A stretch of 64,000 nucleotides of DNA, from assembly GCF_022095675.1 (NCBI RefSeq), contig NZ_JAHYSG010000043.1:1-64000 (forward strand), in the 5' to 3' direction. This DNA is from Dactylosporangium sp. AC04546. GTDB lineage: Bacteria; Actinomycetota; Actinomycetes; Mycobacteriales; Micromonosporaceae. The notes beneath the pieces were generated by a model. It saw only the letters and a list, made by a program, of their open reading frames with translations. It was not told where the DNA came from and did no database searches. Numbering within the stretch: the first letter of the stretch is position 1; each line of letters starts with the position of its first letter. The position numbers and the translations under genes are program-made. Below, piece after piece: positions 5,801 to 22,665 of this stretch.

Positions 5801-5908
5801 CTCCCCCAGGTTTTCTTTGCGGCTGATCAACCCTGGTCAACGTTGTGGTGTGGGCTGTCGTACGGTGTGTCGCGTTCAGAAAATGTCGGTGGTGGCTGGT
5901 ATGAACGT

Positions 5909-5924: not shown

Positions 5925-5943
5925 ATCTGGGTTGGAGGGTGCG

Positions 5944-6720: not shown

Positions 6721-6742
6721 CCGAGCCCCGCCTGAGCCCCGC

Positions 6743-7202: not shown

Positions 7203-8081
7203 GTGACCGACGGCGAGGCGTCTGCGTTATCCCCGGCTGTATCCCCGGCCCAGCCATCGCGTCCCACAGACCTGGCGGCCCTACCGGCAGCCGGGTCCGC
7301 GCCTGCGGGTGGGGTGTGGCGGGCGCCGCGGACGTGGCGGGTCATGCTGCTGCTGGCGCGGATCGTGGTCGGGGCGGTGGCGCGGCTGCGGGTCAGCGGT
7401 GACGTGCCGGCCGGGGTGCGGGCCGGGGCGGTGATGTTCGCGGCCAACCACATCGGGCCGTTCGACCCGGTCGTCATCACCGCCGCGTGCGGGAAGGCGC
7501 GGCTGGCGCCGCGGCTCATGGCGACCGGTGGGCTGTTCCGGGCGCCGGTCGTCGGTGGGGTCATGCGGGCCGCCGGGCACATCCGGATCAACCGGCGGCA
7601 GGCCGACGTGGCCGCCGCCGTCGACGACGTGGCCGCGGCCCTCGCCGTCGGGTCGCATGTGCTCGGGTACCCGGAGGGGCGGATCACGCTCGACCCCGGC
7701 ATGTGGCCGGAGCGTGGCAAGACCGGCATGGCGCGGGTGGCGCTGCGGACCGGGGTGACGGTGGTGCCGGTCGCGCAGTGGGGTGCGCACGAGGTGGCGG
7801 CGTGGGGCGGGTTCGGGCCGACGGTCCGTGCCGTGTGCCGGTCCCTGCTGCGCCGGCCCGTTGTGCGGGTCCATTTCGGCGCGCCGGTCGACCTGTCCGG
7901 TATCGACCCGGCCGCGCCGGGCGCGGCGCAGCAGGCCACCGACCGCATCATCGACGCCATCACCGCCGAACTGCGCCCGCTGCGGCCGTCCGAGCCGCGC
8001 CTGCCCCGCTACGTCGACCCGGTCCGCCCGCTGAGTACGCAGCGCCGCCACCGCCCGCCAACGGAACGCGCCCGCCCCTGA
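7203..8081 (+). CDS. PlsC-type 1-acylglycerol-3-phosphate acyltransferase
   Basis: The 292-residue protein has the acyltransferase block I NHIGPFDP (His and Asp of the H-x4-D catalytic motif) around residue 86. It also has a phosphate-binding block resembling E-G-x-R in the form GYPEGRITLDPG, and a later hydrophobic-proline block TVVPVAQWGAHE. Such enzymes acylate lysophosphatidate or related lipids at the membrane. GTG 7203 is preceded by a purine-rich GGAACGGACAGAT. The first 45 residues are low-complexity, so the true start could lie somewhat downstream. Confidence 0.85.
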   Translation: MTDGEASALSPAVSPAQPSRPTDLAALPAAGSAPAGGVWRAPRTWRVMLLLARIVVGAVARLRVSGDVPAGVRAGAVMFAANHIGPFDPVVITAACGKARLAPRLMATGGLFRAPVVGGVMRAAGHIRINRRQADVAAAVDDVAAALAVGSHVLGYPEGRITLDPGMWPERGKTGMARVALRTGVTVVPVAQWGAHEVAAWGGFGPTVRAVCRSLLRRPVVRVHFGAPVDLSGIDPAAPGAAQQATDRIIDAITAELRPLRPSEPRLPRYVDPVRPLSTQRRHRPPTERARP

Positions 8082-8097
8082 GCGGCCCGCCTGAGTG

Positions 8098-8119
8098 GCC
8101 CGCCGCCGCGGCGGCGGGC
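8098..8119. terminator. Perfect 22-bp GC palindrome between convergent genes
   Basis: GCCCGCCGCCG (8098-8108) is followed directly by its reverse complement (8109-8119). It sits between the stops of the acyltransferase and the erythromycin-esterase homologue, where a bidirectional terminator is expected. No U tract on either side. Confidence 0.55.
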
Positions 8120-8127
8120 GCCTCACG

Positions 8128-9318
8128 TCAGTTCGGGGCGGGGCAGTCCCTGACGTAGACGATGCCGTCCGTGCCGGTCAGGTGGGCCGGGTCGAGGCCG
8201 GCGTAGCCGAACCATTCCGAGCCGCGGGGTGCCGGCGGGCCGGCGGTGAACGTGGCGGCCAGGGTCCGCGGGTCGACGAGGAAACGGTCCTCGCCGGTGG
8301 CGTACAGGTGGCCCTCGACGGTGTCCGGGGGTGGGGTGCCCACGCCCTGGTGGCGGATCGTGCCCAGGGCGGTGGCCAGGAACGCGTAGCCGGTGCCGAG
8401 GCGGGCGGCGCTCAGCGCGCCCGCGCTCCACCACTGCAGCGGCAGGTCGCCCATGCGCATGCTGCTGCGTTCGCGTTGCAGGTGGCTGTTGTGGGCGAAC
8501 AGCAGCGTCGGGCCGCGTTCGGCGAGGGCCAGGACGTTGTCGGCCATCATCGTGTCGCGGACGCGGACCAGGTGGTTGAGGCGGGCCGGGGACGGGTCCG
8601 CCATCCAGTAGTGGTAGCGCAGCAGGCCGGTCGCGGTGCGGGCGTGCAGGCGGGCGCGGTCCCACGCGTCGCGGCCCGTCGCGGCGATGAGGTGCGGGGT
8701 TTCGGCGTCGACGAGGTTCGCCAGGTCGTCGGCGATGAGGCGCAGCTCGCGGGCGTTGGGGGTGCGGCCGATCGACTCGGCCGGGTCGAACATGGTGGCC
8801 GGGTTCGTCCAGCGTTCGTCGGGGCCGAGCAGCGACGCGAGGGTTTCGGTGGTGCAGGGCAGCAGCTGCGGGTCCAGGTGGGCGGTCAGGTAGGTGTGGA
8901 CGGTGGTGACGGCGGTGCGGGGGCTTTCCGGGCCGCTGATCTCCAGGGGGCCGTCGATGCCGGCGAACCGGACCCGGTCGGCGGGTGGGCGCGTCTGGTT
9001 GGTGTCGCGCATCCACTGCACGAGGGCGCGGTTGGCGGGCGACGCGCCGAAGCTGTGGGAGAAGCCGCGGGTCATGGCGTCGTCGAGGGTGCCGGGGCCG
9101 CCGGTGACGTAGTCGTCGACGGTGAGGGCGAGCAGGCAGTCGCTCTCGATCGCGACGGTGCGGTAGCCGGCCTGGTCGATGAGCTGGCGGAACAGGTCGT
9201 TGCGGACCTCGAGCAGGATGTCCTCGCCGTGGGTGGGTTCGCCGAGGCCGAGGACCCGCGGGTGGGGTGAGGGCAGCAGCGACAGCACGGTCGTGGCGTC
9301 GATCGGGAGCGGTGTCAT
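8128..9318 (-). CDS. Erythromycin esterase family protein
   Basis: The 396-residue protein has the family signatures GLGEPTHGED (His30 and Glu32), TVAIESD (Glu58), RVRDTMMADN and FAHNSHLQRE. Ere enzymes open the macrolactone ring with a conserved histidine acting as general base. Many homologues in antibiotic producers have other, unknown substrates, so macrolide resistance should not be assumed. TACGGT 7 nt before ATG 9318 suggests a leaderless transcript. Confidence 0.85.
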   Translation of the reverse strand: MTPLPIDATTVLSLLPSPHPRVLGLGEPTHGEDILLEVRNDLFRQLIDQAGYRTVAIESDCLLALTVDDYVTGGPGTLDDAMTRGFSHSFGASPANRALVQWMRDTNQTRPPADRVRFAGIDGPLEISGPESPRTAVTTVHTYLTAHLDPQLLPCTTETLASLLGPDERWTNPATMFDPAESIGRTPNARELRLIADDLANLVDAETPHLIAATGRDAWDRARLHARTATGLLRYHYWMADPSPARLNHLVRVRDTMMADNVLALAERGPTLLFAHNSHLQRERSSMRMGDLPLQWWSAGALSAARLGTGYAFLATALGTIRHQGVGTPPPDTVEGHLYATGEDRFLVDPRTLAATFTAGPPAPRGSEWFGYAGLDPAHLTGTDGIVYVRDCPAPN

Positions 9319-9342
9319 TCCTTCGACCGTACCGCTGAACCG

Positions 9343-9399
9343 ACGGTTGAAGATTTTCCCGCAGATGCGCAGGACCAGGCCGGGAAAACTTCAAACCGT
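9343..9399 (-). terminator. Long imperfect hairpin downstream of the two-HTH operon
   Basis: The arm at 9343-9361 pairs with the arm at 9381-9399 over 18 bp with one bulged base on each side; the loop is 19 nt. On the minus strand it follows the stop of the 9404-10027 gene and precedes the esterase promoter, so it probably ends the regulator operon. Confidence 0.6.
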
Positions 9400-9403
9400 G
9401 GGG

Positions 9404-10027
9404 TCAGTTGCCTTCGCGGCGCATCCGGAGGTACGCCAGGACCGCCTCGCGGGTCGTGCGCACGCCGAGGGCCTCGCGGGCCTCGGCGATGCGGCGGTTC
9501 GCGGTGCGCAGCGACAGGAACTCCGCGGCGGCCGCCGCCGCGATCGTCTCGCCGCCGGCGAGGCGCTCCAGCAGGGCGCGCTGCTCGGGGGCGAGCTGCA
9601 GGCCGGTCGCGGCCGGTTCGGCTTCGGTGCCCAGGTCGGCGTCGGGATCGGTGGCGACCGGGCCGATGCGGCCCAGGTCGGCCAGCAGGGCGCGGCCGAT
9701 GTCGCCGGCGGCGTCGCTGATCGCGACGATGCCGGCGCCGCGGGCCGCGGCCAGCAGCGCCAGCTCGGCGGTGTCGGCGTCGGCGACCCGGCCGAACAGG
9801 GCCAGCCGGGCGTCGGACACGTCCCACTGCTGGTCGGTGAGGGCGAAACCTTCCCGGGTCGTCCAGCCGGCCCGGGCGAGCCGGCGCAGGACGGTGGTGG
9901 CGTCGCCGCCGGTCGCGACGACGTAGCGGGGTGCGAGGGCTGGGTCGCCGGCCATCAGGCGTCCGTCCGCGAAACCCGGGTAGGCGTTGACATGCGCCAA
10001 CCATGCGATGAAGTTGCCGCCCGGCAC
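9404..10027 (-). CDS. LuxR-type helix-turn-helix protein with unknown sensor region
   Basis: The 207-residue protein ends in a LuxR/NarL-type DNA-binding domain: LAPEQRALLERLAGGETI, then AAEFLSLRTANRRIAEAREALGVRTTREAVLAYLR. The N-terminal 140 residues (for example ARAGWTTREGFALTDQQWDV, LLAAARGAGIVAISD) match no family I know and lack a receiver-domain Asp pattern. It lies 16 bp downstream of the large ATPase-LuxR gene on the same strand, so the two are probably co-transcribed and may act on the same divergent operon. Confidence 0.7.
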   Translation of the reverse strand: MPGGNFIAWLAHVNAYPGFADGRLMAGDPALAPRYVVATGGDATTVLRRLARAGWTTREGFALTDQQWDVSDARLALFGRVADADTAELALLAAARGAGIVAISDAAGDIGRALLADLGRIGPVATDPDADLGTEAEPAATGLQLAPEQRALLERLAGGETIAAAAAAEFLSLRTANRRIAEAREALGVRTTREAVLAYLRMRREGN

Positions 10028-10043
10028 AAGACCAGACCCTTAC

Positions 10044-12548
10044 TCATCCAAGTTCCTCAATGGCCAGGGCGGCGGCTTCGGTGCGGGTGCGGGCGCCGAG
10101 CTTGCGCATCCCGGAGCGGATGTGGGTCTCGACCGTCTCCCGGGAGATGCCGAGCTGCCCGGCGATGCGGCGGGTCGGCTCGCCGTTGGCGACGAGGCGC
10201 AGCACGTCACGCTCGCGGTCGGTGAGCTCGTCACCGGCGCGGCGGCCGCGGATGTCCCGGCGGATCGAGTGCCGGCGCAGCGCCCGGCGGGCCCGGCCGA
10301 GCAGCACCACCAGGCCGGCCTCCTCGGCGAGGCGCTCCGCCTCCAGCAGCGGCGGTACCGCCCGGTCAGCGGTCTCCTCCAGCAGCCCCCGCGCCAGCAG
10401 GCAGCGGACCTCCTCCCGGCGGGCCAGAGTCCGCCACGCGGCCGCGGCCTCGGCGAAGCGGTCCGGGGACTTCCACGCCTCCAGCGTCGCCACGACCGGC
10501 GGCAGGGCCGCGTCACCGGCCGGGAGCGCGTCACCGGTGACACCGGCGTCGTAGGCGGCCCAGCGGGCGGTGATGCGGCGCAGCCCGTCGACGAGCGGCG
10601 GCGCCGGGTCGGCGGACGGGACGGTCGCCTGGTCGGGCTGCCCGTCGAGCCACGCCGCCTCACGGGCCACCCAGTCAAGCGCCGGGGCCGTGGCCGCGGG
10701 CCGGTTGGTGAGGGCCTCCAGGCGGGCCCGGGCCGGGGCGAGCAGGCCACCGTCGGCCTCGGCGAGGGACGCGGCGGCGACGGCGTAGCCGCGGGCCACC
10801 GCCGGCAGGGTCCGGTCGGTGAGGTCACCGGCGCGGCGGACGACCTCGTCGATCTCCTCACCGCGCAGCGCGTCGCACCACAGCTGCGCCGCGACGAACC
10901 GGGTCTGCCAGCTGTAGGCGAGGTCACCGGCGCACGCGGCGGCGGCCGCCGCCGCGGCCTGGGACGCCTCGGCGAGGCGGGCGTCGGCGGTCAGGGTCTC
11001 CACCAGCAGCCACGCCGACCAGCGGGCGGCGAGCGCGTCGCCGGCCTGCCCGGCCGCGGACGCGGCCGACGCCAGGCCGTACTCCCAGCCGGGCTGGCGG
11101 GTCCCGGCCCGCACCGCGGCGACCGCGGCGCGCAGGCCCGGGTGGGTGGGGGCGTCACCGTGGACCTTCAGCAGTTCCTCGGCGCGGGCGACGGCACCGG
11201 CCGGGTCGGTGGTGAGCATGCTCAGCAGCCGGATCCGGTCGCGGCCGCCGAGCACGTCCGCCGCGGCGTCGTCGGGGACGGCGGCGACGGCGGCCGCGGC
11301 GGCGGGCGCGTTGCCCTGCTGCAGCAGCGCCTCACCGCGCAGCACCGCGGCGACCGGGTCGGTGGTGGCCGGGTCGATGACCCGCAGGCACGAACCGGGC
11401 CGGCCGGCGGCCAGCGCGGCCCGGGCCGCGGCGACCCGCACCTGCGGTTCCGCGTCGACGCCCGGCAGGTCACAGGCGAGCAGCAGCAGCTCGGCGCGGT
11501 CACCGGACGACTCCGCGGCCGCCGCCGCGCGCACGGCGACCTGGTAGGCCTCGGCGGGGGCGCCGGCGGCGGCGAGGTGCCGGGCCGCCTCCCGCGGCGG
11601 GACCAGCGTCGCGAGGCGGCGGTGCAGGGCGGCGCGTTCGGCCGGTTCGAGCAGGCCGGCGGCGACCTCCGCCGTGTACGGGGACACGGGCGCGGCCACG
11701 CCGTCGGTGAGCTCGACCAGGCCGGTCGCGGTCAGCTCGGCGAGGCCCTCACCGAGGACCGACGCGGTGACCGGGCGGCCGAGCAGGCCCAGCGCGGCCA
11801 TCGCGGTACGGGCCGGGCGGGTCAGGTCCGCCAGGGCGCCGGCGACGGCGTAGGCGAGGCCCTTGTCGAGGTCCGGGCCGGAGTCGCGGGGCGTGCCGCC
11901 CTGCGCGACGTGCCGGGCCAGGGTCGTCACCGCCAGGGGCACACCACCGGCCCGGCGGACCAGGTCGGCGACGACCGCGGTCGGCGCGGACGGGGCGATC
12001 TGACGGACCAGGGCCGCGGCCGCGCCGGCCGGCATCGCCGGCATGTTCAGCCACAGGGTCGCGGCGCCGCGCAGCGCCGCCTCCGCGTCGCCGGGCAGCC
12101 GGTGCGGGGTCCGCAGAGTGACGACTATCCGACAGTGTTCGGCGATCGCCGGGAGCGCGGCCACGGTCAGCGGGTCCGCCCACTGCAGGTCGTCGATGAG
12201 CAACAGGCCGTGACGGACGCGGGAGCGGACCGCCTCGGCGAGCAGCGGCGCGTCGTGTGAGGGAAGTCGCACCCGCACCGCCCGCGACAGGGCCAGGGCC
12301 GGCACACCACGCAGCATCGCCAGTGCCCCACCGGCGAACACCGCACCCCGGAACGCCTCACCGAGCCGCTTGAGGACCGTCGAACGGCCCGTGCCCGGCG
12401 CCCCGGCGATGACTACCAGACCCGGGTTACGCAGGGCATCCACCGCGGCGGCGACAAGTTCGGCAGGCGGCCACGCCGCGGCACCAACCGTCGCCCGGCC
12501 GCTGACCGGCGCACTGGCGACGGGTTCGTCGATCGGTGCCTCAGGCAC
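10044..12548 (-). CDS. Large ATPase-LuxR (LAL/IniR-like) transcriptional regulator
   Basis: The 834-residue protein has an AAA-type ATPase module with Walker A GAPGTGRST (residues 49-57) and Walker B GLLLIDDLQWADP. A long alpha-helical repeat region follows, then a C-terminal LuxR domain ELTDRERDVLRLVANGEPTRRIAGQL (recognition helix ISRETVETHIRSGMRKLG). I chose GTG 12548 because GGAGGCGACCC precedes it; the upstream extension is implausible. Size, architecture and its divergent position beside dynamin genes match the mycobacterial regulator IniR next to iniBAC. The ligand is unknown. Confidence 0.88.
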   Translation of the reverse strand: MPEAPIDEPVASAPVSGRATVGAAAWPPAELVAAAVDALRNPGLVVIAGAPGTGRSTVLKRLGEAFRGAVFAGGALAMLRGVPALALSRAVRVRLPSHDAPLLAEAVRSRVRHGLLLIDDLQWADPLTVAALPAIAEHCRIVVTLRTPHRLPGDAEAALRGAATLWLNMPAMPAGAAAALVRQIAPSAPTAVVADLVRRAGGVPLAVTTLARHVAQGGTPRDSGPDLDKGLAYAVAGALADLTRPARTAMAALGLLGRPVTASVLGEGLAELTATGLVELTDGVAAPVSPYTAEVAAGLLEPAERAALHRRLATLVPPREAARHLAAAGAPAEAYQVAVRAAAAAESSGDRAELLLLACDLPGVDAEPQVRVAAARAALAAGRPGSCLRVIDPATTDPVAAVLRGEALLQQGNAPAAAAAVAAVPDDAAADVLGGRDRIRLLSMLTTDPAGAVARAEELLKVHGDAPTHPGLRAAVAAVRAGTRQPGWEYGLASAASAAGQAGDALAARWSAWLLVETLTADARLAEASQAAAAAAAACAGDLAYSWQTRFVAAQLWCDALRGEEIDEVVRRAGDLTDRTLPAVARGYAVAAASLAEADGGLLAPARARLEALTNRPAATAPALDWVAREAAWLDGQPDQATVPSADPAPPLVDGLRRITARWAAYDAGVTGDALPAGDAALPPVVATLEAWKSPDRFAEAAAAWRTLARREEVRCLLARGLLEETADRAVPPLLEAERLAEEAGLVVLLGRARRALRRHSIRRDIRGRRAGDELTDRERDVLRLVANGEPTRRIAGQLGISRETVETHIRSGMRKLGARTRTEAAALAIEELG

Positions 12549-12579
12549 GGGTCGCCTCCATTCGTGGCACGAACATGGG

Positions 12580-12597
12580 ATCCTGCGCGCGCAGGAT
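12580..12597. promoter_or_regulatory. 18-bp perfect palindrome in the regulator/dynamin divergent region
   Basis: ATCCTGCGC (12580-12588) is followed directly by GCGCAGGAT (12589-12597). It lies 32 bp upstream of the regulator start and 63 bp upstream of the 36-residue ORF. It is a natural operator candidate for the LuxR-type regulators encoded beside it. Confidence 0.6.
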
Positions 12598-12660
12598 ATT
12601 CGTAATGTGTGTGCCGTACGTGCGTGACATGACGGTACTGATTGCACCCAGGAGCGAATA

Positions 12661-12771
12661 ATGAGCGAGGTCCACCCCTTGGACACCCGAGGGTACGTCG
12701 GCATTGTGGCTGAACACACCGGCCTCGCGCAGTCGGCGATCAGTCTGTCCGTGCCGCAGAACCGGAGCTGA
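12661..12771 (+). CDS. Small ORF (36 aa) leading the dynamin operon
   Basis: ATG AGC GAG GTC runs 36 codons to TGA 12769-12771, giving MSEVHPLDTRGYVGIVAEHT and a further 16 residues. AGGAG at 12653-12657 sits well for this ATG. The stop is 4 nt before the GTG of the first dynamin gene, so ribosomes finishing here could restart there. No transmembrane segment or known motif. It could be a leader peptide controlling the operon, or a small functional protein. Confidence 0.55.
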   Translation: MSEVHPLDTRGYVGIVAEHTGLAQSAISLSVPQNRS

Positions 12772-12775
12772 AGCC

Positions 12776-14302
12776 GTGGCTCCAGGACCGTTGAGCTCCC
12801 GCGTCGCCGACCTGTGCGCCGAGGTCGGCAACCGCCTCGGCGGCGCCACCCAGGCCCAGGTGATCGACGTGCGGCGGCGCCTCGGCGAACCGCTGCGGGT
12901 CGCGATCGCCGGCCGGCTCAAGTCGGGCAAGTCGACGCTGGTCAACGCGCTCATCGGGCGGCGGGTCGCACCGACCGAGGTCGGCGAGTGCACCCGCATC
13001 GTGACGCAGTTCCGCTACGGCACCTCCGACCGGGTCGACGTGGTCAAACGCAACGGGGCCCGGGTCAGCCTCCCCCTCGACGAGGCCGGCATGATCCCGC
13101 AGCGCCTCGGCGTCGCCCGGCACGAGGTCGCCTACGTCGACGTCACCCTCACCAGCGACCACCTGCGCGACCTGACCGTCGTCGACACCCCCGGCCTGTC
13201 CTCGGCGAACACGGCCGTGTCCGACCAGGCCCGCCGGTTCCTGTTCACCGAGGCCCCGATCGACGACGACCTCGACTCCGACTCCGCCGGGGCGCTGTCC
13301 GGCGCCGAGGCGATCATCTACGTGTTCACGCAGTCGGTCCGTGAGGACGACGTGCAGGCCCTGGAGGCGTTCCGGTCGGTGTCGGCACGGCTGTCGTCGA
13401 ACCCGATCAACTCGCTCGGCCTGTTCAACAAGGTCGACAAGCTCGCCGGTGGCGGGCAGGACCCGTGGCCGATCGTCGCGCCGCTCGCCGGTGACCAGTC
13501 CAAGGTGCTGCGGCGGGTCGTCTCGGATGTGGTACCGGTGGTCGGTCTGCTGGCCGAGACGACCGAGGCGGGCCGGCTCACCGCCGCCGACTGCGAGGCG
13601 CTGCGGCAGCTGGCCGCGATGCCCCAGGGCGAACGCACCGTGCTGCTCGCGTCGGTCGACCTGTTCACGACCCGCGAGTGCGGGATCACCCGCGAGTCGC
13701 GGGAACGGCTGCTGCGGCTGCTCGACCTGTACGGGATCAGCTTCGCCATCGCCCAGCTCGTCGACAAGCCGACCCTCGCCACCGGTGAGCTGGTGCGGAT
13801 GCTGTTCCAGGCGTCCGGGTTCCCGCGGCTGCGGCAGACCCTCGACCACGCGTTCCGGTGGCGCACCGACGCCATCAAGGCCGGCTGGGCGCTGTCGAGC
13901 CTGGAGAAGATCGCCAGCCACGCCGAGCGGCCCCACGACCGGGAACTGCTCCGCGACGCGATCGAACGGGTCCTGCAGCAGCCCGAGTCGCACCGGCTGC
14001 GCCTGCTGGAGGTCGCGCAGCTGGTCACGACCGGCGCCGTGGACCTGCCCGACCAGATGGAGGGCGAGCTGACCCGGCTGGCGCTGTCCAACGACCCCGG
14101 CTGGATCCTCAACCTGCCGCAGGCCGACCGTGACCAGATGGTCCGCGCCGCGCTGGACGCCGCGACCCGCTGGCGGGCCTACGCCGTCGCCGGGGCCAGC
14201 CCGTCCCAGTCGCGGGTCGCGCTCGTCGCGCACCGCGGCTTCTACCTGCTGTCCCAGCGCATCCGTGGCGGCTCCGCGACGGGACAGGCCCATGCCCGGT
14301 AG
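12776..14302 (+). CDS. Dynamin-like GTPase (IniC-like), no membrane segment
   Basis: The 508-residue protein has a dynamin-type GTPase domain: P-loop GRLKSGKST (residues 46-54), G3 DTPG (137-140) and G4 NKVD (218-221). A helical C-terminal half of about 250 residues shows no hydrophobic paddle. Bacterial dynamins of this type work in pairs on membranes; mycobacterial IniC is of similar length and also lacks the membrane segment. GTG 12776 follows CGGAGCTGAAGCC. It opens an operon with the GrpE-like and second dynamin genes. Confidence 0.85.
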   Translation: MAPGPLSSRVADLCAEVGNRLGGATQAQVIDVRRRLGEPLRVAIAGRLKSGKSTLVNALIGRRVAPTEVGECTRIVTQFRYGTSDRVDVVKRNGARVSLPLDEAGMIPQRLGVARHEVAYVDVTLTSDHLRDLTVVDTPGLSSANTAVSDQARRFLFTEAPIDDDLDSDSAGALSGAEAIIYVFTQSVREDDVQALEAFRSVSARLSSNPINSLGLFNKVDKLAGGGQDPWPIVAPLAGDQSKVLRRVVSDVVPVVGLLAETTEAGRLTAADCEALRQLAAMPQGERTVLLASVDLFTTRECGITRESRERLLRLLDLYGISFAIAQLVDKPTLATGELVRMLFQASGFPRLRQTLDHAFRWRTDAIKAGWALSSLEKIASHAERPHDRELLRDAIERVLQQPESHRLRLLEVAQLVTTGAVDLPDQMEGELTRLALSNDPGWILNLPQADRDQMVRAALDAATRWRAYAVAGASPSQSRVALVAHRGFYLLSQRIRGGSATGQAHAR

Positions 14303-14366
14303 CCGCACCGCACAGACCATGCCCACCGTCTCCCCTGTTCGTGGCCCCCACCCCCAGGAGCCGAAG

Positions 14367-15176
14367 ATGTCCTCCAACAGCCTGCGTCTCGTCGCGGTCG
14401 TCGTCGCGCTCATCGTCGCGGTGCTCACCGGCGCGGCGACCGGCCTGCTCAGCGGCGCCCCCGACTGCCCGGCGGTCACCGTGACCCCCGGCGCCCAGAA
14501 CGGCGGGCAGAACTCCGCACCCGCCGGTGGCGGCGGCGCCGCCAAGGACGTCGGTGATGCCCTGAACGGCGGCAGCACCCCGAAGCAGCAGCCGGAGCAG
14601 CAGAGCACCACCCCCGCCGGGCAGCCGCAGGCACAGACCGTGCCGGCCTGCACCAGCCAGGAGACGTTCGGGTTCCAGCCGGCACTCGTCGCGTTCGCCG
14701 GGGCCCTGTTCCTCGGCGCGGCCCTGCTGCTGCTGTTGCTGCTCGCCTCCCGCAAGGCCCCGGCCCAGTCCCAGACCGGGCAGGCCGGGCGGGGCGGCCC
14801 CGCCGCCGGTGGGGCCGCCGACGCGGACCGGCGGGCGCTCGTGCAGGCCAGCATCTACGTGCGGGACCGGGTCACCAGCAAGGCCCTCGGCGACCGGCTC
14901 GGCGCCGCGCTCGCCGAGGCCGGGGTCACCGTCCTCGAACCCGTCGGGGTGCGGTTCGACCCGGCCCACCACGAGGCCGGCGGCACCACCCCCGCCACCG
15001 ACCCCAGCCAGGTCGGGCAGATCTCCGCCGTCGAGGTCCCCGGCTACATCGACCGGGACGGGCGGGTCCTGCGGGCGCCGATCGTCACCGTCTACCAGGC
15101 CCCCCGCAGCGCGGGCGGGCCCACCGGCGCGCACCAGACCGTGACTCAGCAACCACGTAAAGGGCAGCAGCGATGA
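14367..15176 (+). CDS. Membrane-anchored GrpE-like nucleotide exchange factor
   Basis: The 269-residue protein has two membrane helices (about 8-29 and 105-128) enclosing an exported Gly/Pro/Gln-rich loop with two cysteines (Cys34, Cys95) that could form a disulfide. The cytosolic tail (about 155-245) reads like the GrpE head: VLEPVGVRFDPAHHEAGG, then VEVPGYIDRDGRVLRAPIV. Cytosolic GrpE proteins have a long coiled coil here replaced by the membrane module. GrpE releases ADP from Hsp70, so the tail-anchored Hsp70 at 17861-19399 is the obvious partner. I chose ATG 14367 for AGGAG six nt upstream; ATG 14292 is an alternative. Confidence 0.75.
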   Translation: MSSNSLRLVAVVVALIVAVLTGAATGLLSGAPDCPAVTVTPGAQNGGQNSAPAGGGGAAKDVGDALNGGSTPKQQPEQQSTTPAGQPQAQTVPACTSQETFGFQPALVAFAGALFLGAALLLLLLLASRKAPAQSQTGQAGRGGPAAGGAADADRRALVQASIYVRDRVTSKALGDRLGAALAEAGVTVLEPVGVRFDPAHHEAGGTTPATDPSQVGQISAVEVPGYIDRDGRVLRAPIVTVYQAPRSAGGPTGAHQTVTQQPRKGQQR

Positions 15177-17089
15177 CGCAGACCTCCAATCCGGCACCGG
15201 CCGGCGCCGGGAAGAAGCCGGCCGACGCGACCCAGGCGCTCGGGAAGCTGCTGAAGGCCGGCGTCGACGGCAGCCTCGCCTTCCTGCGCAAGATCGACCC
15301 CGACGCGGCCGCCGACGTCGACACCGAACGGCGCCGTGACGTGCAGCGGCCGCGGATCGTCGTCGTCGGTGAGACGAAACGCGGCAAGAGCTCCCTGACG
15401 AACATGCTCATGGGCGTGCCGAACCTGTCACCGGTCGACGCGGCCGTGGCGACCGCGTCGTACCTGGAGTTCACGCACAACCCGCAGCACGGCGCCCGCG
15501 CCTACATCCCCGGCCGGGAGGACCCGGTCCCGCTCGGCCTCGGCGACCTGCGCGACTGGGGCACCGTGCTGGGCCGGCTGCCCGACGGGATGCGCCCGCC
15601 GCGGCGGATCGAGGTGCACCACTCGGCGCCGCTGCTGCAGTACCTGACGCTCATCGACACGCCCGGCACCGGCGGTCTGGACTCGATGCACGCCGAAGTC
15701 GCGATGGACGCCGTGGAGAAGGCGACCGCGCTGCTGTTCGTCGTCGACTCGTCCTCACCGTTCTCCAAGCCGGAGATGAACTTCCTCATCGAGGCGAGCA
15801 AGCGGGTCAACTTCGTGCTGTTCGCCCTCACGAAGGTCGACGCCTACCCGGGCTGGCGGACCATCCTCGCCGACAACAAGGGCCAGCTGCAGACCCACGC
15901 CCCCCGGTTCGGGTCCGCGCCCTGGTTCCCGGTGTCGGCGCGGCTGGCCGAACTGGCGATGCAGATGCCCAAGGACGCCGCCGGTGACCTGATCCGCGAG
16001 TCACGCATCGCCGAGCTCCAGCACGCCCTCATCGACCTGGCCAGCAAGGGCCACCTGCTGCAGCAGGCCAACGTGCTGCGCTCCGTGCGGTCGGAGTACA
16101 TCCGCATCGACCAGGAGATCGGTGACCGGATGAAGGCCACCGACCCCGACCCGGCCGACGCCGAACGGGCCAAGGAGGAACGGGCCCGGGTCGCGACCCG
16201 CAAGCGGACCGAACAGCGGCAGTGGTCCCTGGCCCTGTCGACCGAGACCCAGCGGGCGCGGGTCGAGGCCACCACCCGGCTGCGCAACTACATCACGCAG
16301 CTGCAGGAACAGTTCATGGAGAAGATCGACAAGGGCGGGCGCGGCGACATCCAGAACCTGCCCCAGGAGGTCGACAAGGCGCTGTACGCGCTGTCCGTGC
16401 GGCTGTCCCACGACCTGGAGTTCCGGTTCCGCAAGGTCGGCGAGCGGGTCCTCGCGCAGGTGTTCCACCCCAACGAGCTGCAGCACGTGCTGCGGCAGCT
16501 CAACGCGAAGCTGCGCCACGCCCTCGGGACCAAACCCCGCCGCGACGGCGGCAACGGCGACGGGGCCATGGTCGTCATGTCCTCGGCCGGTATGGCGATG
16601 ATGGCCGGCCGCGGCGCGATGGCCGGCGCCGGCGCGATGGGCCTCGCCGGGATCGCCGGCGCCGGTCTCGTCATCCCCGTCATCGGCATCGGTCTCGGCC
16701 TCGCCGCCGGCGCGTACATGATCTTCAAGCGGAAGAGCATGACGGACAAGGTGCAGACCCGCACCTGGCTGCGGGAGGTCCTCGGCGAGGCCCGCGCCGC
16801 CCTGTCCGACGAGATCATGCACCGGTTCACCGACCTGCAGTACGCGCTGACCCTCGCCCTCGACGAGGCCATCGAACGGCGCCTCAAGCAGCTCGACGCC
16901 CACATCGCCGCGATCGACAAGTCCCTGGCCGAGGACAAGGCCGAACGGGCCAAGCGCAAGGCCGCGCTCAACACCGAACGGGAGGGGCTGCGCTCCCGGA
17001 TCAAGCAGGTCGACGAGGTCCTCGTGCGGATCCGGGCGCTCACGCCGAACGCGCCGACCGACACGGCCTCCGACCCGGCCGAAGCGTAG
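15173..17089 (+). CDS. Dynamin-like GTPase (IniA-like) with hydrophobic membrane segment
   Basis: The 638-residue protein has P-loop GETKRGKSS (66-74), G3 DTPG (162-165) and G4 TKVD (220-223). Long amphipathic helices follow, rich in Arg/Glu (about 320-380). A Gly/Ala/Met-rich hydrophobic region at about 465-518 ends with GLAAGAYMIFKRK and is a likely membrane-inserting paddle. A C-terminal charged coiled coil completes it. Mycobacterial IniA has nearly the same length and layout. ATG 15173 overlaps the GrpE-like stop (ATGA), so the two products are made together. Confidence 0.87.
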   Translation: MTQTSNPAPAGAGKKPADATQALGKLLKAGVDGSLAFLRKIDPDAAADVDTERRRDVQRPRIVVVGETKRGKSSLTNMLMGVPNLSPVDAAVATASYLEFTHNPQHGARAYIPGREDPVPLGLGDLRDWGTVLGRLPDGMRPPRRIEVHHSAPLLQYLTLIDTPGTGGLDSMHAEVAMDAVEKATALLFVVDSSSPFSKPEMNFLIEASKRVNFVLFALTKVDAYPGWRTILADNKGQLQTHAPRFGSAPWFPVSARLAELAMQMPKDAAGDLIRESRIAELQHALIDLASKGHLLQQANVLRSVRSEYIRIDQEIGDRMKATDPDPADAERAKEERARVATRKRTEQRQWSLALSTETQRARVEATTRLRNYITQLQEQFMEKIDKGGRGDIQNLPQEVDKALYALSVRLSHDLEFRFRKVGERVLAQVFHPNELQHVLRQLNAKLRHALGTKPRRDGGNGDGAMVVMSSAGMAMMAGRGAMAGAGAMGLAGIAGAGLVIPVIGIGLGLAAGAYMIFKRKSMTDKVQTRTWLREVLGEARAALSDEIMHRFTDLQYALTLALDEAIERRLKQLDAHIAAIDKSLAEDKAERAKRKAALNTEREGLRSRIKQVDEVLVRIRALTPNAPTDTASDPAEA

Positions 17090-17103
17090 GGGGTTGACTC
17101 GAC

Positions 17104-17799
17104 ATGGACGGGCACTGGGAATGGTCCGAAGGCGACGACGCCGCCGACACCGCCGACCTGGGCGGTGACGGCGGCGGACCCGCCGACTTCGGCGGCGACT
17201 ACGGCTTCGAACACACCGACCTCGGGCACGACCTGGGCGGCGACCTCGGCGGCGAGCACCACGACCTGGGGCACGACCTCGGGCACGACGCCGGGCACGG
17301 CGGGGACGACCTGGAGGAGCCGCTCGGCACCGAGCACGCCACCGCGGACTACGACCACGCCGTCGAGACCGGCTACGGCGCCGACGACGTCCCGGAGCCC
17401 GCGGTCCCAGACACCGTCGATGACACGGCCGGCGACACCGTCGGCGACACCGTCGAGGAGCCGGTGACGTTCGGGGTCGACCCCGACGTCGACACCGGCG
17501 CCGACGACCCCGCGTGGCACGACGTGCCGTTCCCGGCCGAACTGCACCTGGAGGACCCGCCCGAGCCCGTCGACGGGTTCCCGTGGACCGACGTCGACGT
17601 CATCGGCGGCGGCCACGAAACCCAGGAAGCGCAGTTCGACCCGGCCGTCGCCGACCCGGCGCAGGCCGCGGACCCGGCCGGGCTGGCCGACTACGACGGT
17701 GCCGGCGTGCCCGACGGCGCCGACCCGTGGAGCCTGCTGCTCGGCTCCGACGACCCGGCCACCAGCAGCCTCGCCACGTTCTGGGCCCCCCAGGCCTGA
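17104..17799 (+). CDS. Acidic Asp/Gly/His-rich repeat protein
   Basis: The 231-residue protein is strongly acidic. It contains a run of short imperfect repeats built on D-L-G-G/H-D/E (residues about 35-65, for example HDLGGDLGGEHHDLGHDLGH) and few hydrophobic residues until the last 25. It has no signal peptide or membrane helix and is probably disordered. Repeated Asp and His suggest divalent-metal binding, but this is inference. It ends the dynamin operon, 14 bp after the second dynamin. IniB of mycobacteria is also a low-complexity protein in such an operon, though no sequence match is claimed. Confidence 0.65.
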   Translation: MDGHWEWSEGDDAADTADLGGDGGGPADFGGDYGFEHTDLGHDLGGDLGGEHHDLGHDLGHDAGHGGDDLEEPLGTEHATADYDHAVETGYGADDVPEPAVPDTVDDTAGDTVGDTVEEPVTFGVDPDVDTGADDPAWHDVPFPAELHLEDPPEPVDGFPWTDVDVIGGGHETQEAQFDPAVADPAQAADPAGLADYDGAGVPDGADPWSLLLGSDDPATSSLATFWAPQA

Positions 17800-17803
17800 C
17801 CGC

Positions 17804-17853
17804 GCTCATACGAGAAAGGCCGCCTCCCGTGGGAGGCGGCCTTTCGTATGAGC
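17804..17853. terminator. Bidirectional intrinsic terminator
   Basis: GCTCATACGA plus AAGGCCGCCTCCC on the left pairs with the reverse complement on the right (17831-17853), leaving two bulged bases at about 17814-17815 and a tight loop at 17829-17830. A stem of more than 20 bp between the convergent acidic-protein and Hsp70 genes, with CCTTTCG on the plus strand, is a clear two-way terminator. Confidence 0.9.
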
Positions 17854-17860
17854 AGGCGGT

Positions 17861-19399
17861 CTAGAAGGCCGTCAGGAGCAGGACCACGAACAGGATCGCG
17901 ACCAGGACCAGCACGACCACGATCACCGCGATCCAGTTGCGCTCCGCCGCGTCCTCCGACTGGACGACCGGCGCCTGCCGGGCCGCCTGCGGCGGGAACG
18001 GCCCCGGACGCTGCTGGACAACCGGCTGCGGCACCGGCGCGGGCTGCGGGCGGTACACCGGCTGCGGCGGCACCACCGGGCGCTGCACCTGCGGCGGGGC
18101 CTGGACCGGCTGGACGGGCGGGCGGGCCACCGGCGGCGGCATGACCGGGCGCTGGACGGGCGGCGGGGCCTGGACCGGCTGGACGGGCGGGCGCTGCACG
18201 GCCGGCGACACCGGCATGCCCGACATCGGCACCGCCGACACCGGCGGCTGCACCGGCGGGCGCTGCGGCGCGACCTGCTGCATGACCTGGGGCCGCGGCG
18301 CGACCTGCTGCGGCGTGCCCGACGTACGGACCGGGGCGCCCGCGACACCGATGCACAGGGCACCCTCGACGACGACCGTCTCCGGCTGCTCCAGCGTCGT
18401 GGGCGCCACCCCCAGCTCGGTGTGGATCAGGTGCGCGGCGAGGGGGATGCGGGACGAGCCGCCGACCAGGAAGATCCCGACGAGGTCCTTCGGCGACAGC
18501 CGCGCCGACTCGATCGCCCGGGACAGGCACTGCACGGTGCGCTCCAGGTGGGGCCGGACGAGGGTCTCCAGCTCCTCCCGGGTCAGGTGCGCGTCGATCT
18601 CCATCGACGGCAGGTGGATGTCGGTCGACGCGGTCCGCGACAGCATCTCCTTGGCACCGCGGACGTCCTCGTAGAGCATGCGGCGCAGCCGCCGGTCGGA
18701 GGCGTCGGTCGGGTTCGACAGCGCCGCCCACTTCTCCTGGTGGCTCGTCGAGTACGTCTTGCCGAGGTGCTCCACGATCGCGTGGTCGAAGTCCAGACCG
18801 CCGACGTCGGGCAGGCCGTCCTCGGCGAGGACCTCGAACCCCGACTGGGTCCGGCGGACCACGGTCGCGTCGAACGTGCCGCCGCCCAGGTCGTAGATGG
18901 CCAGGCTGCGGCCCACCGGAACGGCGGAGCCCAGCACGGCCGTGAAGTACGACGCGGCGCCGACCGGCTCCGCGATCAGCCGGGGCGTGCCCAGGCCGGA
19001 GATGCGCGACGCCTCGCTGAGCAGCGACCGGCGCCGCTCACCCCAGCGGGCCGGGTGGGTGATGCGCACCTCCTGCGGCGCCCCGCCGAGCTGCCGCCGG
19101 GCCTCGGTGTTCACCTGCGACAACACGTGCGCGAACAGGCGCGGCACGGGCATCGAAAGCTCACCGATGAACACTTCGCCGTCGTCGATGCGCCGTTTCG
19201 GGTTCGGCTCGAAGCGGGCCGGGTCGAGCCGAGCGTTGCGCTCGGCGTCCCGGCCGACGAGGACCTTCCCGTCGGCGTTGAAATACAAGGAAGAGGGCAG
19301 CAAAGGAGAACCGTCGAACAACAACGGCCGCATCCGCGCGTCCTGGCGGATCATCGCGACCGTGTTCGACGTGCCGAAGTCGATGCCGAGCACGCGCAT
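17861..19399 (-). CDS. Tail-anchored Hsp70-like ATPase lacking a substrate-binding domain
   Basis: The 512-residue protein has an Hsp70 nucleotide-binding domain: VLGIDFGTSNT (phosphate 1, residues 3-13), IYDLGGGTFDATVV (phosphate 2, 168-181) and GIFLVGGSSRIPL (adenosine, 308-320). After about residue 355 there is no beta-sandwich or lid. Instead a Pro/Val/Gln-rich linker (about 360-475) leads to one C-terminal membrane helix (about 489-510), so the ATPase domain should face the cytosol. TAGGGT lies 7 nt before ATG 19399. With the membrane GrpE-like protein it would make a membrane-surface ATPase cycle; no DnaJ gene is present. Confidence 0.88.
   Translation of the reverse strand: MRVLGIDFGTSNTVAMIRQDARMRPLLFDGSPLLPSSLYFNADGKVLVGRDAERNARLDPARFEPNPKRRIDDGEVFIGELSMPVPRLFAHVLSQVNTEARRQLGGAPQEVRITHPARWGERRRSLLSEASRISGLGTPRLIAEPVGAASYFTAVLGSAVPVGRSLAIYDLGGGTFDATVVRRTQSGFEVLAEDGLPDVGGLDFDHAIVEHLGKTYSTSHQEKWAALSNPTDASDRRLRRMLYEDVRGAKEMLSRTASTDIHLPSMEIDAHLTREELETLVRPHLERTVQCLSRAIESARLSPKDLVGIFLVGGSSRIPLAAHLIHTELGVAPTTLEQPETVVVEGALCIGVAGAPVRTSGTPQQVAPRPQVMQQVAPQRPPVQPPVSAVPMSGMPVSPAVQRPPVQPVQAPPPVQRPVMPPPVARPPVQPVQAPPQVQRPVVPPQPVYRPQPAPVPQPVVQQRPGPFPPQAARQAPVVQSEDAAERNWIAVIVVVLVLVAILFVVLLLTAF
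18076..18213 (-). repeat. 69-bp in-frame tandem repeat in the Hsp70 linker
   Basis: Two adjacent copies (18076-18144 and 18145-18213) share most bases. The stretch around GGGGCCTGGACCGGCTGG is repeated exactly 69 bp later. It encodes 23-residue units containing RPPVQPVQAPP. Linker length could vary between strains by slippage. Confidence 0.75.
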
Positions 19400-19504
19400 G
19401 TGCGTCACCCTACCTTTGCCGTTCCACGCTTTGCGTCGGCCGTCAAGCCTGCCGTAACCCGCTGTTGCCCCAACTTGCCGGAAGATCACTGCATACTGGC
19501 CGAC

Positions 19505-20269
19505 GTGAGGCACGATGTCCCCTACCTCGACCAGGCAGGACCGCTGGGCTTCGCCCACCGTGGCGGTGCGGCGGCCGGTGACGAGAACACGACAGCGGCG
19601 TTCGCCCGTGCGGTCGAACTCGGCTACCGATACATCGAGACAGACACGCACGCCACCGCCGACGGGGTCGCGGTCGTGTTCCACGATGACACGCTCGAGC
19701 GGCTCCTGGGGCGTCCGGGTCGGATGATCGACTTACGGTGGGCGGACCTGGCGAGCGAACGGGTCGGCGGGGCCGCCGTGGTACCGCGGCTGGAGGAGGT
19801 CCTGGAGGCCTGGCCGCAGGTCCGGTTCAACATCGACGCCAAGACCGACGCCGCCGCCGAGCCCACCATCGAGGTGGTGCGCCGCGCCGGCGCCGAGGAC
19901 CGGGTGCTGCTCGCGTCGTTCTCCTCCGCCCGGCTGGCCCGGATGCGGCGGGCCGCCGGTCCGCGGGTGGCGACGTCGCTGGGGATGAGCGAGGTCGCGA
20001 AGCTCTGGCTGGCGGCGAAGGCCGGGCGGGCGCTGCGGCTGCCGGACAGTGTCGCGGCGATCCAGATCCCGCCGCGGTACGGCAGGCTCGCGCTGGCCAC
20101 CCCGAAGTTCGTCGGCTACGCCCATCGGCTCGGGCTGCACGTGCACCTGTGGACGATCGACGACGCCGCACAGATGGAGCACTTCCTCGACCTCGGTGTT
20201 GATGGCATCATGACCGATCACATCGAGGTGTTGCGCGACGTGTACGTGCGGCGCGGCATCTGGAACTGA
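19505..20269 (+). CDS. Glycerophosphodiester phosphodiesterase
   Basis: The 254-residue protein has the GDPD signature: FAHRGGAAAGDENT (His18, Arg19, Glu27, Asn28), YIETDTHATADGVAVVFHDD (Glu45, Asp47 and the second catalytic His), FNIDAKTD and the C-terminal LHVHLWTIDD. It hydrolyses glycerophosphodiesters to glycerol-3-phosphate and an alcohol with a bound divalent metal. There is no signal peptide, so it should act in the cytosol. GTG 19505 is the first in-frame start before the catalytic block. It is divergent from the Hsp70 gene and 26 bp before the transporter gene. Confidence 0.92.
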   Translation: MRHDVPYLDQAGPLGFAHRGGAAAGDENTTAAFARAVELGYRYIETDTHATADGVAVVFHDDTLERLLGRPGRMIDLRWADLASERVGGAAVVPRLEEVLEAWPQVRFNIDAKTDAAAEPTIEVVRRAGAEDRVLLASFSSARLARMRRAAGPRVATSLGMSEVAKLWLAAKAGRALRLPDSVAAIQIPPRYGRLALATPKFVGYAHRLGLHVHLWTIDDAAQMEHFLDLGVDGIMTDHIEVLRDVYVRRGIWN

Positions 20270-20295
20270 CCCCGCCGTTCCTGGAAGAGGCCGCC

Positions 20296-21666
20296 GTGTC
20301 CACTGTGGAGGAAACGCAGCTCAGCACCCGTCGGGAGAGGGTCGGCTGGTACTTCTACGACTGGGCGAACTCGGCGTTCTCGACCACGGTCGTGACCGTG
20401 TTCCTCGGCCCGTACCTGACGTCGATCGCCGAGAAGGCCGCCGGCTGCGAGGGTGACGCCTGCGACGACGCCGTCATCCGGCCGCTCGGCATCGCGATCG
20501 CCCCCGGCGCCCTGTTCCCGTACGTGGTGTCGCTGTCGGTGTTTCTCACCGTGTTCGTGCTGCCCGTCGTCGGGGCGATCGCCGACCGCTCACCCCGCAA
20601 GAAGGAGCTGCTGGCGCTGTTCGCCTACATCGGGGCGGGCGCGACGGCGGCGATGCTGTTCCTGACCGGCGACCGGTACCTGCTCGGCGCCGGGCTGTTC
20701 CTGGTGGCCAACATCGCGTTCGGCGCGTCCGTCGTGGTGTACAACTCGTTCCTGCCGCAGCTGGCCGACGAGGAGGACCGCGACCGGGTGTCCAGCTTCG
20801 GGTGGGCGTTCGGGTACCTCGGCGGCGGCCTGCTGCTGCTCGTCAACGTCGTCGCCGTGCTCATGAAGGACTCGCTGGGGCTGACGACCGGCGACGTCGC
20901 GCGGTACAGCATCGTCTCGGCCGGCCTGTGGTGGGCCGGGTTCACGACCATCCCGCTGCTGCGGCTGCGCAACCGGCCGGTCGTCGTCGACCCCACGATC
21001 GGCGCCGGCACCGGGTCGGTGCTCACCGACGGGTTCCGGCAGCTGTGGCACACCCTGAAGAGCCTCAAGGCGTTCCCGCTGACGCTGTTCTTCCTCGTCG
21101 CGTACCTCGTCTACAACGACGGCATCCAGACCGTGATCGCCCTGGCCAGCCAGTACGGCACCAAGGAGCTCGGGCTGTCCGACGACGTGCTGGTCCCGAC
21201 GATCCTCATGGTGCAGTTCCTGGCGTTCGCGGGGGCGCTGCTGCTGGGCTGGATGGCCAAGCGGATCGGCGCGTGGAAGACGCTGCTGACCAGCCTCGTG
21301 CTGTGGACCGTGATCATCCTCATCGCGTACTTCCTGCCCGTCGGGCAGGCGGTGCCGTTCGTCGCGCTCGGCGGCGGCATCGGCCTGGTCCTCGGCGGCA
21401 GCCAGGCCCTGTCCCGGTCGCTGTTCTCACAGCTCATCCCGAAGGGCAAGGAGGGCGAGTACTTCGGGCTGTACGAGATCTCCGACAAGGGCACCAGCTG
21501 GCTCGGGCCGCTGCTGTTCGGGCTGGCCTACGACACCACCCGCAGCTACCGGGTCGCGATCATCTCGCTGCTGGTGTTCTTCGTCGTCGGGTTCGTCCTG
21601 CTGCTGGCGGTGCCGATCCGCAAGGCGATCGAGCAGGCCGGCAACACCCCACCCGTCAAGCTGTAG
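20296..21666 (+). CDS. MFS transporter, UMF1 (Atg22-like) family
   Basis: The 456-residue protein has about twelve membrane helices. It opens with REVGWYFYDWANSAF-type sequence (here RRERVGWYFYDWANSAFST), the hallmark of the UMF1/Vacuole-effluxer family, and carries the A-motif-like GAIADRSPRKKELL after helix 2. Yeast Atg22 exports amino acids from the vacuole; bacterial substrates are unknown. GTG 20296 follows GGAAGAGG. It may be co-transcribed with the GDPD gene. The 3' end overlaps the convergent EEP gene by 11 bp. Confidence 0.87.
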   Translation: MSTVEETQLSTRRERVGWYFYDWANSAFSTTVVTVFLGPYLTSIAEKAAGCEGDACDDAVIRPLGIAIAPGALFPYVVSLSVFLTVFVLPVVGAIADRSPRKKELLALFAYIGAGATAAMLFLTGDRYLLGAGLFLVANIAFGASVVVYNSFLPQLADEEDRDRVSSFGWAFGYLGGGLLLLVNVVAVLMKDSLGLTTGDVARYSIVSAGLWWAGFTTIPLLRLRNRPVVVDPTIGAGTGSVLTDGFRQLWHTLKSLKAFPLTLFFLVAYLVYNDGIQTVIALASQYGTKELGLSDDVLVPTILMVQFLAFAGALLLGWMAKRIGAWKTLLTSLVLWTVIILIAYFLPVGQAVPFVALGGGIGLVLGGSQALSRSLFSQLIPKGKEGEYFGLYEISDKGTSWLGPLLFGLAYDTTRSYRVAIISLLVFFVVGFVLLLAVPIRKAIEQAGNTPPVKL

Positions 21667-22606
21667 GGATCCGCAGCTCGGCGACGACGGCGCGGTGGTC
21701 GCTGCCCGGCACGGGCCGCACGGCGACCTCCCGCACCCCGATGCGCCGGTCGACGAGGACGTGGTCGAGCGTGACCGCGAACAGCCGCAGCGGGCCCGGC
21801 GCGACCGCGTACGGCCAGGTCGGGACCAGGCCCCGGCCGCGTTCGGCGGCGGCGTCGCGGTAGCCGCCGCGGCGCAGCAGCCGCCGCAGCGGCGCGTGGT
21901 CGAGGGTGGCGTTGAAGTCGCCGAGCAGCACCCGCGGCGGGCCGTCACCCACGAGTGGCTGTTCGGCGAGGTCGCGGGCCCAGCAGGAGGTCTTCCCGCC
22001 GGGGTGCGGGGCGCACGGGTGGGCCGACTCGACGACGAGGGGGCCGGCGCCCGGCACCAGGACCGTCGCGCGGACCTGCTGGATGCCGCTCGGGCAGACC
22101 CGCACCACCGGCTCGCCGTCGAGCGGGTGGCGGCTGAACACCGCGGTCCCGCGGCCGCGGGGTGCCGGGTGCAGGGCCCGGAACGGCAGCAGCCCGTCGG
22201 CGCCGGCCCGGTCGAACGTCTCCAGGTCGGAGGTGTTCGCCTCCTGCAGGGCGAGGACGTCGACGTCGTCGGTCTTGGCCAGCTGGAGCAGGGCGGTCAT
22301 GTCGCCGCGCTCCCACAGCACGTTCGCGGTCATCACCCGCAGCCGCTGCCCGCCCCGGGCTCCGGGCCGCTTCGGTATCGCCCGGGGGATCACCACCGCG
22401 GCCAGCGCCAGCCCGGCCGCGGCCGTCACGAGCGCCGCCGTGATGCTGGTGAACGCGGCCGCCGCGGCGGCGACCAGGGCGCCACCGGCCACGTAGGGGG
22501 TGAACGCCATCAGCTGGACCAGCGGCGTGCCCCGCTCGAGCCCGAACAACCGGACGAGCGTGAACGCCGCGACCAGGACCGCCACCACCCACCACACGAC
22601 CGTCAT
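21656..22606 (-). CDS. Membrane-anchored endonuclease/exonuclease/phosphatase-family protein
   Basis: The 316-residue protein starts with three hydrophobic segments (about 1-20, 32-52, 55-80). An EEP catalytic domain follows: VMTANVLWERGD, DVLALQEANTSD (catalytic Glu), RVLLGDFNATLDHAPL (Asp/Asn) and VPGSDHRAVVAEL (Asp-His). The topology, multi-helix anchor then an outward EEP domain, is common in actinobacteria and the substrate is unknown. TACCTT 7 nt before ATG 22606 suggests a leaderless transcript. It is divergent from the LacI gene. Confidence 0.87.
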   Translation of the reverse strand: MTVVWWVVAVLVAAFTLVRLFGLERGTPLVQLMAFTPYVAGGALVAAAAAAFTSITAALVTAAAGLALAAVVIPRAIPKRPGARGGQRLRVMTANVLWERGDMTALLQLAKTDDVDVLALQEANTSDLETFDRAGADGLLPFRALHPAPRGRGTAVFSRHPLDGEPVVRVCPSGIQQVRATVLVPGAGPLVVESAHPCAPHPGGKTSCWARDLAEQPLVGDGPPRVLLGDFNATLDHAPLRRLLRRGGYRDAAAERGRGLVPTWPYAVAPGPLRLFAVTLDHVLVDRRIGVREVAVRPVPGSDHRAVVAELRIPTA

Positions 22607-22632
22607 GGTCGAAAAGGTACCCGCCGCTTCTC

Positions 22633-22648
22633 GTGAGAGCGCTCTCGC
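22633..22648. promoter_or_regulatory. LacI-type operator
   Basis: GAGAGC-GCTCTC (22635-22646) is a perfect 12-bp palindrome with central CG, the hallmark of LacI/CebR-like sites. Outer G/C at 22633 and 22648 extend it with one mismatch. It lies between the EEP and LacI starts and overlaps the region before TATCGT, the likely -10 of the LacI gene. Confidence 0.75.
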
Positions 22649-22665
22649 GCGTATCGTTCCCGAGC

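Follow-up and report, generated by a model that had tools for sequence, protein, structure and literature searches.

The window analysed here is a stretch of 64,000 nucleotides from Dactylosporangium sp. AC04546 (RefSeq assembly GCF_022095675.1, contig NZ_JAHYSG010000043.1, positions 1 to 64,000), a member of the Micromonosporaceae in the order Mycobacteriales whose genome comprises 13.0 Mb in 348 contigs. It carries a locus in which two dynamin-like GTPases (D1 and D2) enclose a protein with a GrpE head (G), accompanied by an acidic protein (B), an Hsp70 that lacks a substrate domain (H), a large regulator (R) and a small protein behind the latter (X) (Table 1). An original prediction, made from the sequence alone, had described R, D1, G, D2, B and H as a dynamin and chaperone locus under an IniR-like regulator, and all six genes were found where it had placed them; for R the gene stands, but the open frame overruns the likely start, a GTG at 12548 behind GGAGG. 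The locus is real, conserved within the order and built from known families, and there is a fair chance that its mechanism is new. We lean towards reading it as a conserved membrane-remodelling module of the order, in which a dynamin pair would stand under a membrane Hsp70/GrpE switch.

Table 1. Genes and conserved element of the locus. Positions are those of the window; open reading frames (ORFs) begin at the earliest start codon following a stop, which makes their lengths upper bounds, and membrane segments were called as Kyte-Doolittle peaks.
Feature	Position	Strand	Description
X	9404..10027	-	Small protein, LuxR-like C-terminal helix-turn-helix (HTH) by eye; 16 bases behind R
R	10044..12548	-	MalT-like layout of ATPase and C-terminal LuxR DNA-binding domain; transcribed divergently from D1
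R-D1 element	12561..12613	+	Conserved, promoter/operator-like; perfect palindrome at 12580-12597
D1	12776..14302	+	Dynamin-like GTPase, IniC type, no membrane segment
G	14367..15176	+	Two membrane segments with a two-Cys loop between, GrpE head
D2	15173..17089	+	Dynamin-like GTPase, IniA type, hydrophobic paddle
B	17104..17799	+	Acidic Asp/Gly/His-rich protein, 14 bases behind D2
H	17861..19399	-	Hsp70 nucleotide-binding domain (NBD), Pro/Gln-rich linker, C-terminal membrane anchor; convergent to D1-G-D2-B

Dynamins, GrpE head and Hsp70

Both dynamins match Dynamin_N (PF00350; 57.6 bits for D1 and 54.4 bits for D2), and a hydrophobic paddle region is present in D2 alone, which bears out the predicted IniA/IniC-like pair. 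Searches with D1 return bacterial dynamins, and D1 shares 31% identity (E 2e-38) with the D1-type dynamin in locus L116 from family f8, presumably the iniBAC-bearing mycobacteria. D2, whose frame shares four bases with that of G, matches the solved IniA of Mycobacterium smegmatis (6j72, E 1e-19), described as severing membrane tubes in vitro in the presence of GTP (PMC6715688). Among 245 other genomes of a phylum-wide draw, all beyond the order, the D2 profile gave no match at E <= 1e-60 (five candidates scored per genome).

G was recognised by the GrpE profile PF01025 at 31.2 bits (cut-off 25.8), its head matches human GrpEL1 (E 2e-4), and its nearest named homologues are Dactylosporangium proteins. 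It is a GrpE by sequence and by fold, possessing the beta-wing head, and the fold confirms the GrpE-like protein that had been predicted. Unlike GrpE and GrpEL1 it has no long coiled-coil stalk: the match covers only profile positions 101-164 of 165, leaving out the long N-terminal dimerisation helix, and dynamin-linked GrpE matches among those listed in the order-wide search start at positions 92-99. Retained are the beta wing and the short helices, the parts with which GrpEL1 is reported to open the Hsp70 NBD (PMC11685456), and the GrpEL1 residues that meet the NBD (FDP and HEA) are kept by the head in most rows compared. Two membrane segments, also absent from GrpE and GrpEL1, are found in G of Micromonosporaceae (f1), f5, f11 and f13, so that the predicted membrane anchoring holds in one half of the tree and fails in the other. 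G was also considered as the housekeeping GrpE and rejected, since a canonical-scoring GrpE (E <= 2e-23) is present in 119 of 120 genomes of the order; the remaining one (G050) has a single weak match.

H matches HSP70 (PF00012, 146 bits), and its search matches are DnaK. With DnaK and Hsp70 it has in common the NBD and the ATPase residues (DFGTSN, the Lys of PKRR, the Glu of EPVAAA, DLGGGTFD and a Lys/Ser motif), but the match ends with the NBD, and the interdomain linker and substrate-binding domain are replaced by a Pro/Gln-rich linker and a C-terminal hydrophobic segment. An Hsp70 with a C-terminal anchor, as originally described, is therefore present, and judging from these residues its NBD appears ATPase-competent; the Lys/Ser motif we equate with the nucleotide contacts displaced by GrpEL1. 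The Arg of the IB lobe that meets GrpEL1 in mortalin (R107, which we take to correspond to residue 54 of H from our alignment and the mortalin numbering) is kept in all 32 H proteins from G-bearing loci and in 18 of the 34 Hsp70s of the window's genome outside dynamin loci; the canonical DnaK bin of this comparison includes two misplaced rows from L117. An outside domain with two to four Cys is carried by H of Nakamurella (f4), f7, f12 and one locus of f15 (probably Pseudonocardiaceae); the Nakamurella domain showed no match of its own among the matches listed, which were filled by NBD matches. H as the housekeeping DnaK was rejected, the genome having its own DnaK at C145 and C26 on separate tree branches.

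Regulator, promoter element and flanking genes

R carries a LuxR HTH (PF00196, 63.7 bits), and AAA_16 scored 23.4 bits, below cut-off. Strong homologues of R occur at 34 other loci. Because phmmer matches to X lie in 29 of these, the conserved unit is taken to begin at about 9404. X is also present in L107 (f7) and beside a lone G in L071, both without strong R; it gave no Pfam match at E 0.001, and its true start is uncertain, many orthologous frames having 170-190 amino acids. R and D1 are separated by a 227-bp intergenic region holding an element that recurs in 28 of the 34 other strong-R loci, and a search of the 13-Mb genome for its 23-base core, allowing <=3 mismatches, gave one site, against 0 for a reversed control pattern. 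Seven Dactylosporangium genomes share 93-99% identity in the intergenic DNA (12555-12730), over 206-231 bases, and to the eye it is more strongly conserved than the adjoining coding DNA. IniR is reported to act exclusively on iniBAC (Boot, 2017; PMC5760070), and a dedicated R-D1 site, a candidate for binding by R, fits such exclusive action. Co-regulation of H through the element was also considered and is not supported, as no copy was found near H. All 16 f15 loci have a short LuxR-type gene upstream, encoded on the opposite strand, and the single one that was scanned codes for a NarL-type response regulator; the regulator is thus exchangeable, D1-G-D2 is not.

B contains 60 Asp/Glu and no Lys/Arg in 231 residues of low complexity, and had no match in Pfam, NCBIfam or PADLOC. 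Its profile finds matches behind D2 in Micromonosporaceae loci; elsewhere matches are weak and possibly due to composition bias. A sigma-70 scan of 9900-19700 found no promoter-like site and one terminator-like site, as chance predicts, and an Rfam scan of 5000-25000 gave a single sub-threshold match, outside the locus. Adjoining the locus are an erythromycin-esterase family protein (PF05139; 8128-9318) and an acyltransferase (PF01553; 7089-8081).

Linkage across the order

G was searched in 61 genomes, the window's own and its relatives, and 28 gave a match. In 24 of them the match reached E <= 2e-16, with D1 or D2 in the 1.5-kb flanks in all but one (G046); the other four have weak matches and no dynamins, three with an Hsp70 in the flanks. 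A second set of 120 genomes from the order, drawn independently, was queried with D2; 57 had a match, 38 of them besides the window's at E <= 1e-80, and these 38 D2-orthologue loci were annotated with profiles made from the genes of the window (the counts omit the duplicate loci L130-L134, L136 and L142, seven in all). D1 lies within 5 kb of D2 at every one of the 38, G is present at 36, a strong R at nine, and H lies within 10 kb at 19, where 1.08 would be expected from Hsp70 candidates per genome size; a chance neighbourhood is thus rejected. By family, H is linked in 4/5 loci of f3 (the fifth contig ends at D1), 7/7 of f4, 4/4 of f13, 1/1 each of f5, f7 and f11, 1/16 of f15 and 0/3 of the f1 genus g12. 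Linkage of the four protein families, the check proposed with the original prediction, is seen in f1, f3, f4, f5, f11, f12, f13 and f15, eight families in all, and the outcome named there as refuting, dynamin operons consistently without the chaperone genes, was not encountered. The linkage is incomplete, G being absent from some loci and H lying farther than 10 kb away, or elsewhere in the genome, in all but one of the 16 f15 loci and in part of the Micromonosporaceae.

Wherever D1, G and D2 occur together they stand in this order on one strand (52 of 52 loci, counting all fetched loci with duplicates omitted), f15 included, where H is so rarely linked. Such constancy suits an explanation in which G serves chiefly as an adaptor for the dynamins, its GrpE fold having been put to a new use in linking D1 to D2 at the membrane, and H would be a separate partner or a bystander. 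We regard this as unlikely, since the head of G keeps in most rows the residues with which GrpEL1 meets the NBD, the next most linked gene is an H with intact ATPase residues, and f8, whose Hsp70s are degenerate, has no such G. Between G and D2, one Nakamurella-type locus (L075, 10597-12181) carries a fatty acid desaturase (PF03405) and an ORF that looks Lsr2-like by eye.

Seven Micromonosporaceae genomes without H near D2 (G010, G011, G013, G017, G032, G135 and G145) carry a 66-72% identical H elsewhere, with a C-terminal membrane segment in six and without one in the seventh in the DNA read, whereas in genus g4 of the same family, which has no such D2, the best Hsp70s are 43-48% identical to H. 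At E <= 1e-100, H is present in 33 of the 39 genomes with a D2 orthologue versus 1 of the 81 without (12 candidates scored per genome; the genomes are related, and a Fisher p is not a true probability). In f3 and f4, H lies upstream of D1-G-D2 on the same strand. These figures bear on a second explanation, that envelope-stress genes merely share a neighbourhood without direct contact, the dynamins repairing the membrane while H and G serve membrane protein quality control. It would agree with the 19 of 38 loci where H is not within 10 kb, and with the convergent H of the window, which has no copy of the element. We hold it to be decidedly unlikely: linkage and co-presence of H with D2 exceed chance, H of f3 and f4 shares the strand of D1-G-D2, and classical quality control is not expected of an H without a substrate-binding domain.

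Relation to known systems

The locus resembles iniBAC-IniR of mycobacteria in its pair of IniA-type and IniC-type dynamins, its nearby ATPase-LuxR regulator and its low-complexity protein. It differs from it in gene order (C-G-A-B, that is D1-G-D2-B, instead of B-A-C), in the GrpE head between the dynamins and in an H with intact ATPase residues, whereas the Hsp70 of f8 is degenerate at the ATP site; no relation between IniB and B was detected by family search. The predicted IniR likeness of R holds for the layout only: by BLAST, R resembles the f8 regulator in the LuxR HTH and nowhere else. Boot (2017; PMC5760070) notes in one sentence that iniR of M. smegmatis has a dnaK-like gene downstream. 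In f8 loci L116, L117, L118, L125 and L128 an Hsp70-like gene nearly abuts a LuxR-type regulator of 830-850 amino acids; in L116 D2 is followed by D1, and beside them lies an Hsp70-regulator-Hsp70 arrangement, its first Hsp70 and the regulator nearly abutting. The Hsp70s beside the regulator have a degenerate ATP site (six rows), and all eight f8 genomes show canonical-type GrpE scores only (45-59 bits). Two ORFs upstream of the L116 dynamin pair we take, by eye, to be IniB-like.

The window's genome (G000) yields 50 Hsp70 matches (about 45 proteins), in many of which the NBD alone is recognised and followed by long C-terminal extensions. Two paralogue loci repeat dynamins, Hsp70 and GrpE head, the latter at 32.5 bits in L019 and at 24.9 bits, just under cut-off, in L020. 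In further dynamin loci of this genome (L017, L018-L019, L020, L021 and L022) an Hsp70 is found at a distance of up to about 10 kb. L019 is mirror-like, with the order Hsp70-dynamin-dynamin-GrpE head-dynamin-dynamin-Hsp70, and the C-termini of its Hsp70s match PQQ beta-propellers; the Hsp70 of L017 bears a Clp_N domain, and the GrpE-head protein of L020 has two hydrophobic segments.

GTPase, HSP70 and GrpE also share one neighbourhood in the actinobacterial DO-GTPase GAP1-N2 systems, sometimes together with an HSP70 that is without the peptide-binding domain (Kaur et al., 2020; PMC7159879); the word dynamin is absent from its main text. In contrast, the GTPases of the window score best as Dynamin_N, and D2 as IniA, which places them outside the DO-GTPases. 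No DnaJ-FNIII protein was recognised among the locus proteins, and GrpE is reduced to a head between the dynamins. GAP1 was not recognised among the scanned locus proteins, though no dedicated search was made. A conflict or phage-defence role analogous to these systems gains from the resemblance of D2 to the PADLOC LeoBC and LeoA profiles (88 and 85 bits), from the several variant paralogue loci and from the proposal of actinobacterial DO-GTPase systems with HSP70 and GrpE as conflict systems (PMC7159879). It seems to us very improbable, as the GTPases are dynamins, the orthologues are largely syntenic across families and often have a dedicated regulator, and no effector domain was recognised among the scanned proteins. 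Literature searches that paired dynamin with Hsp70/GrpE or with the ini genes, in sources other than subscription journals and preprints, listed no paper on the combination.

A possible Hsp70/GrpE switch on dynamins

In the mechanism that we propose, D1 and D2 would be an IniC/IniA-type pair deforming or cutting the cytoplasmic membrane, and H a membrane-tethered Hsp70 ATPase with its own nucleotide state as output; as H has no substrate domain, we infer that the signal lies in the nucleotide state it adopts at the membrane. G would be the dedicated exchange factor of H, a GrpE head lacking the long stalk of the dimer, membrane-held in Dactylosporangium or soluble in Nakamurella, where the outside part would have moved to H. 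Envelope damage sensed outside may change G or H, upon which H at the membrane would toggle between its ADP and ATP states, allowing or reversing dynamin assembly. In Micromonosporaceae, R and X would turn on D1-G-D2-B via the one dedicated promoter element.

Several observations weigh against such a switch. G tracks the dynamins more tightly than H does (36 versus 19 of 38 loci), and f15, with H linked in 1 of 16, has more distant bitopic-type Hsp70s elsewhere in all 16 genomes. G is missing from eight loci of Phytohabitans, Asanoa and Micromonospora sp. CPCC 205371, whose genomes have canonical-like GrpE scores only (49-86 bits versus 169-217 for true G), and from two further loci; the dynamins remain across these loci, mostly with H too, and Phytohabitans keeps an intact H. 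Genome G046 (L071) has a lone G with X and no dynamin in the 20 kb read, and D2 of f7 is interrupted by a stop codon. The dimer stalk is absent from G, and no J protein was seen among the locus proteins scanned for families. The contact Arg is dispensable for GrpE binding generally, being Asn in three mycobacterial-type canonical DnaK rows; the 32 H rows that keep it are mostly orthologues, and both Hsp70s of L019, a locus with a GrpE head, are without it. The alternation between an anchored G and an H with outside domain is weak, with one change each on the tree and one independent pair (five f3 D2 rows were left out of this tree). In the window H lies outside the D1 operon, with no element copy nearby. 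The original prediction, in which the chaperone pair provides ATP-driven control of dynamin assembly at the membrane, is accordingly supported in part: linkage, the GrpE fold of G and the ATPase residues of H favour it, whereas the gaps in G and H linkage and the limited IniR likeness do not.

It is tentatively suggested, as a possibility that we rate below the module itself, that bacteria evolved a dedicated Hsp70/GrpE switch, embedded in the membrane and devoid of a peptide-binding domain, which relays an extracytoplasmic signal to a dynamin pair; one branch would carry the sensor on the exchange factor, the other on the Hsp70. Such a switch would be the bacterial equivalent of control by chaperones of coat or dynamin assembly, related to iniBAC, in which the Hsp70 would have decayed and such a GrpE is absent. 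The finding bears on how the activity of bacterial dynamins is controlled and on the role of IniA and IniC in drug-stressed mycobacteria. With a dedicated ATPase and exchange factor beside an IniA/IniC-type pair, control by an Hsp70 switch becomes directly testable, and the locus suggests a use for the numerous actinobacterial Hsp70s that have no substrate domain.

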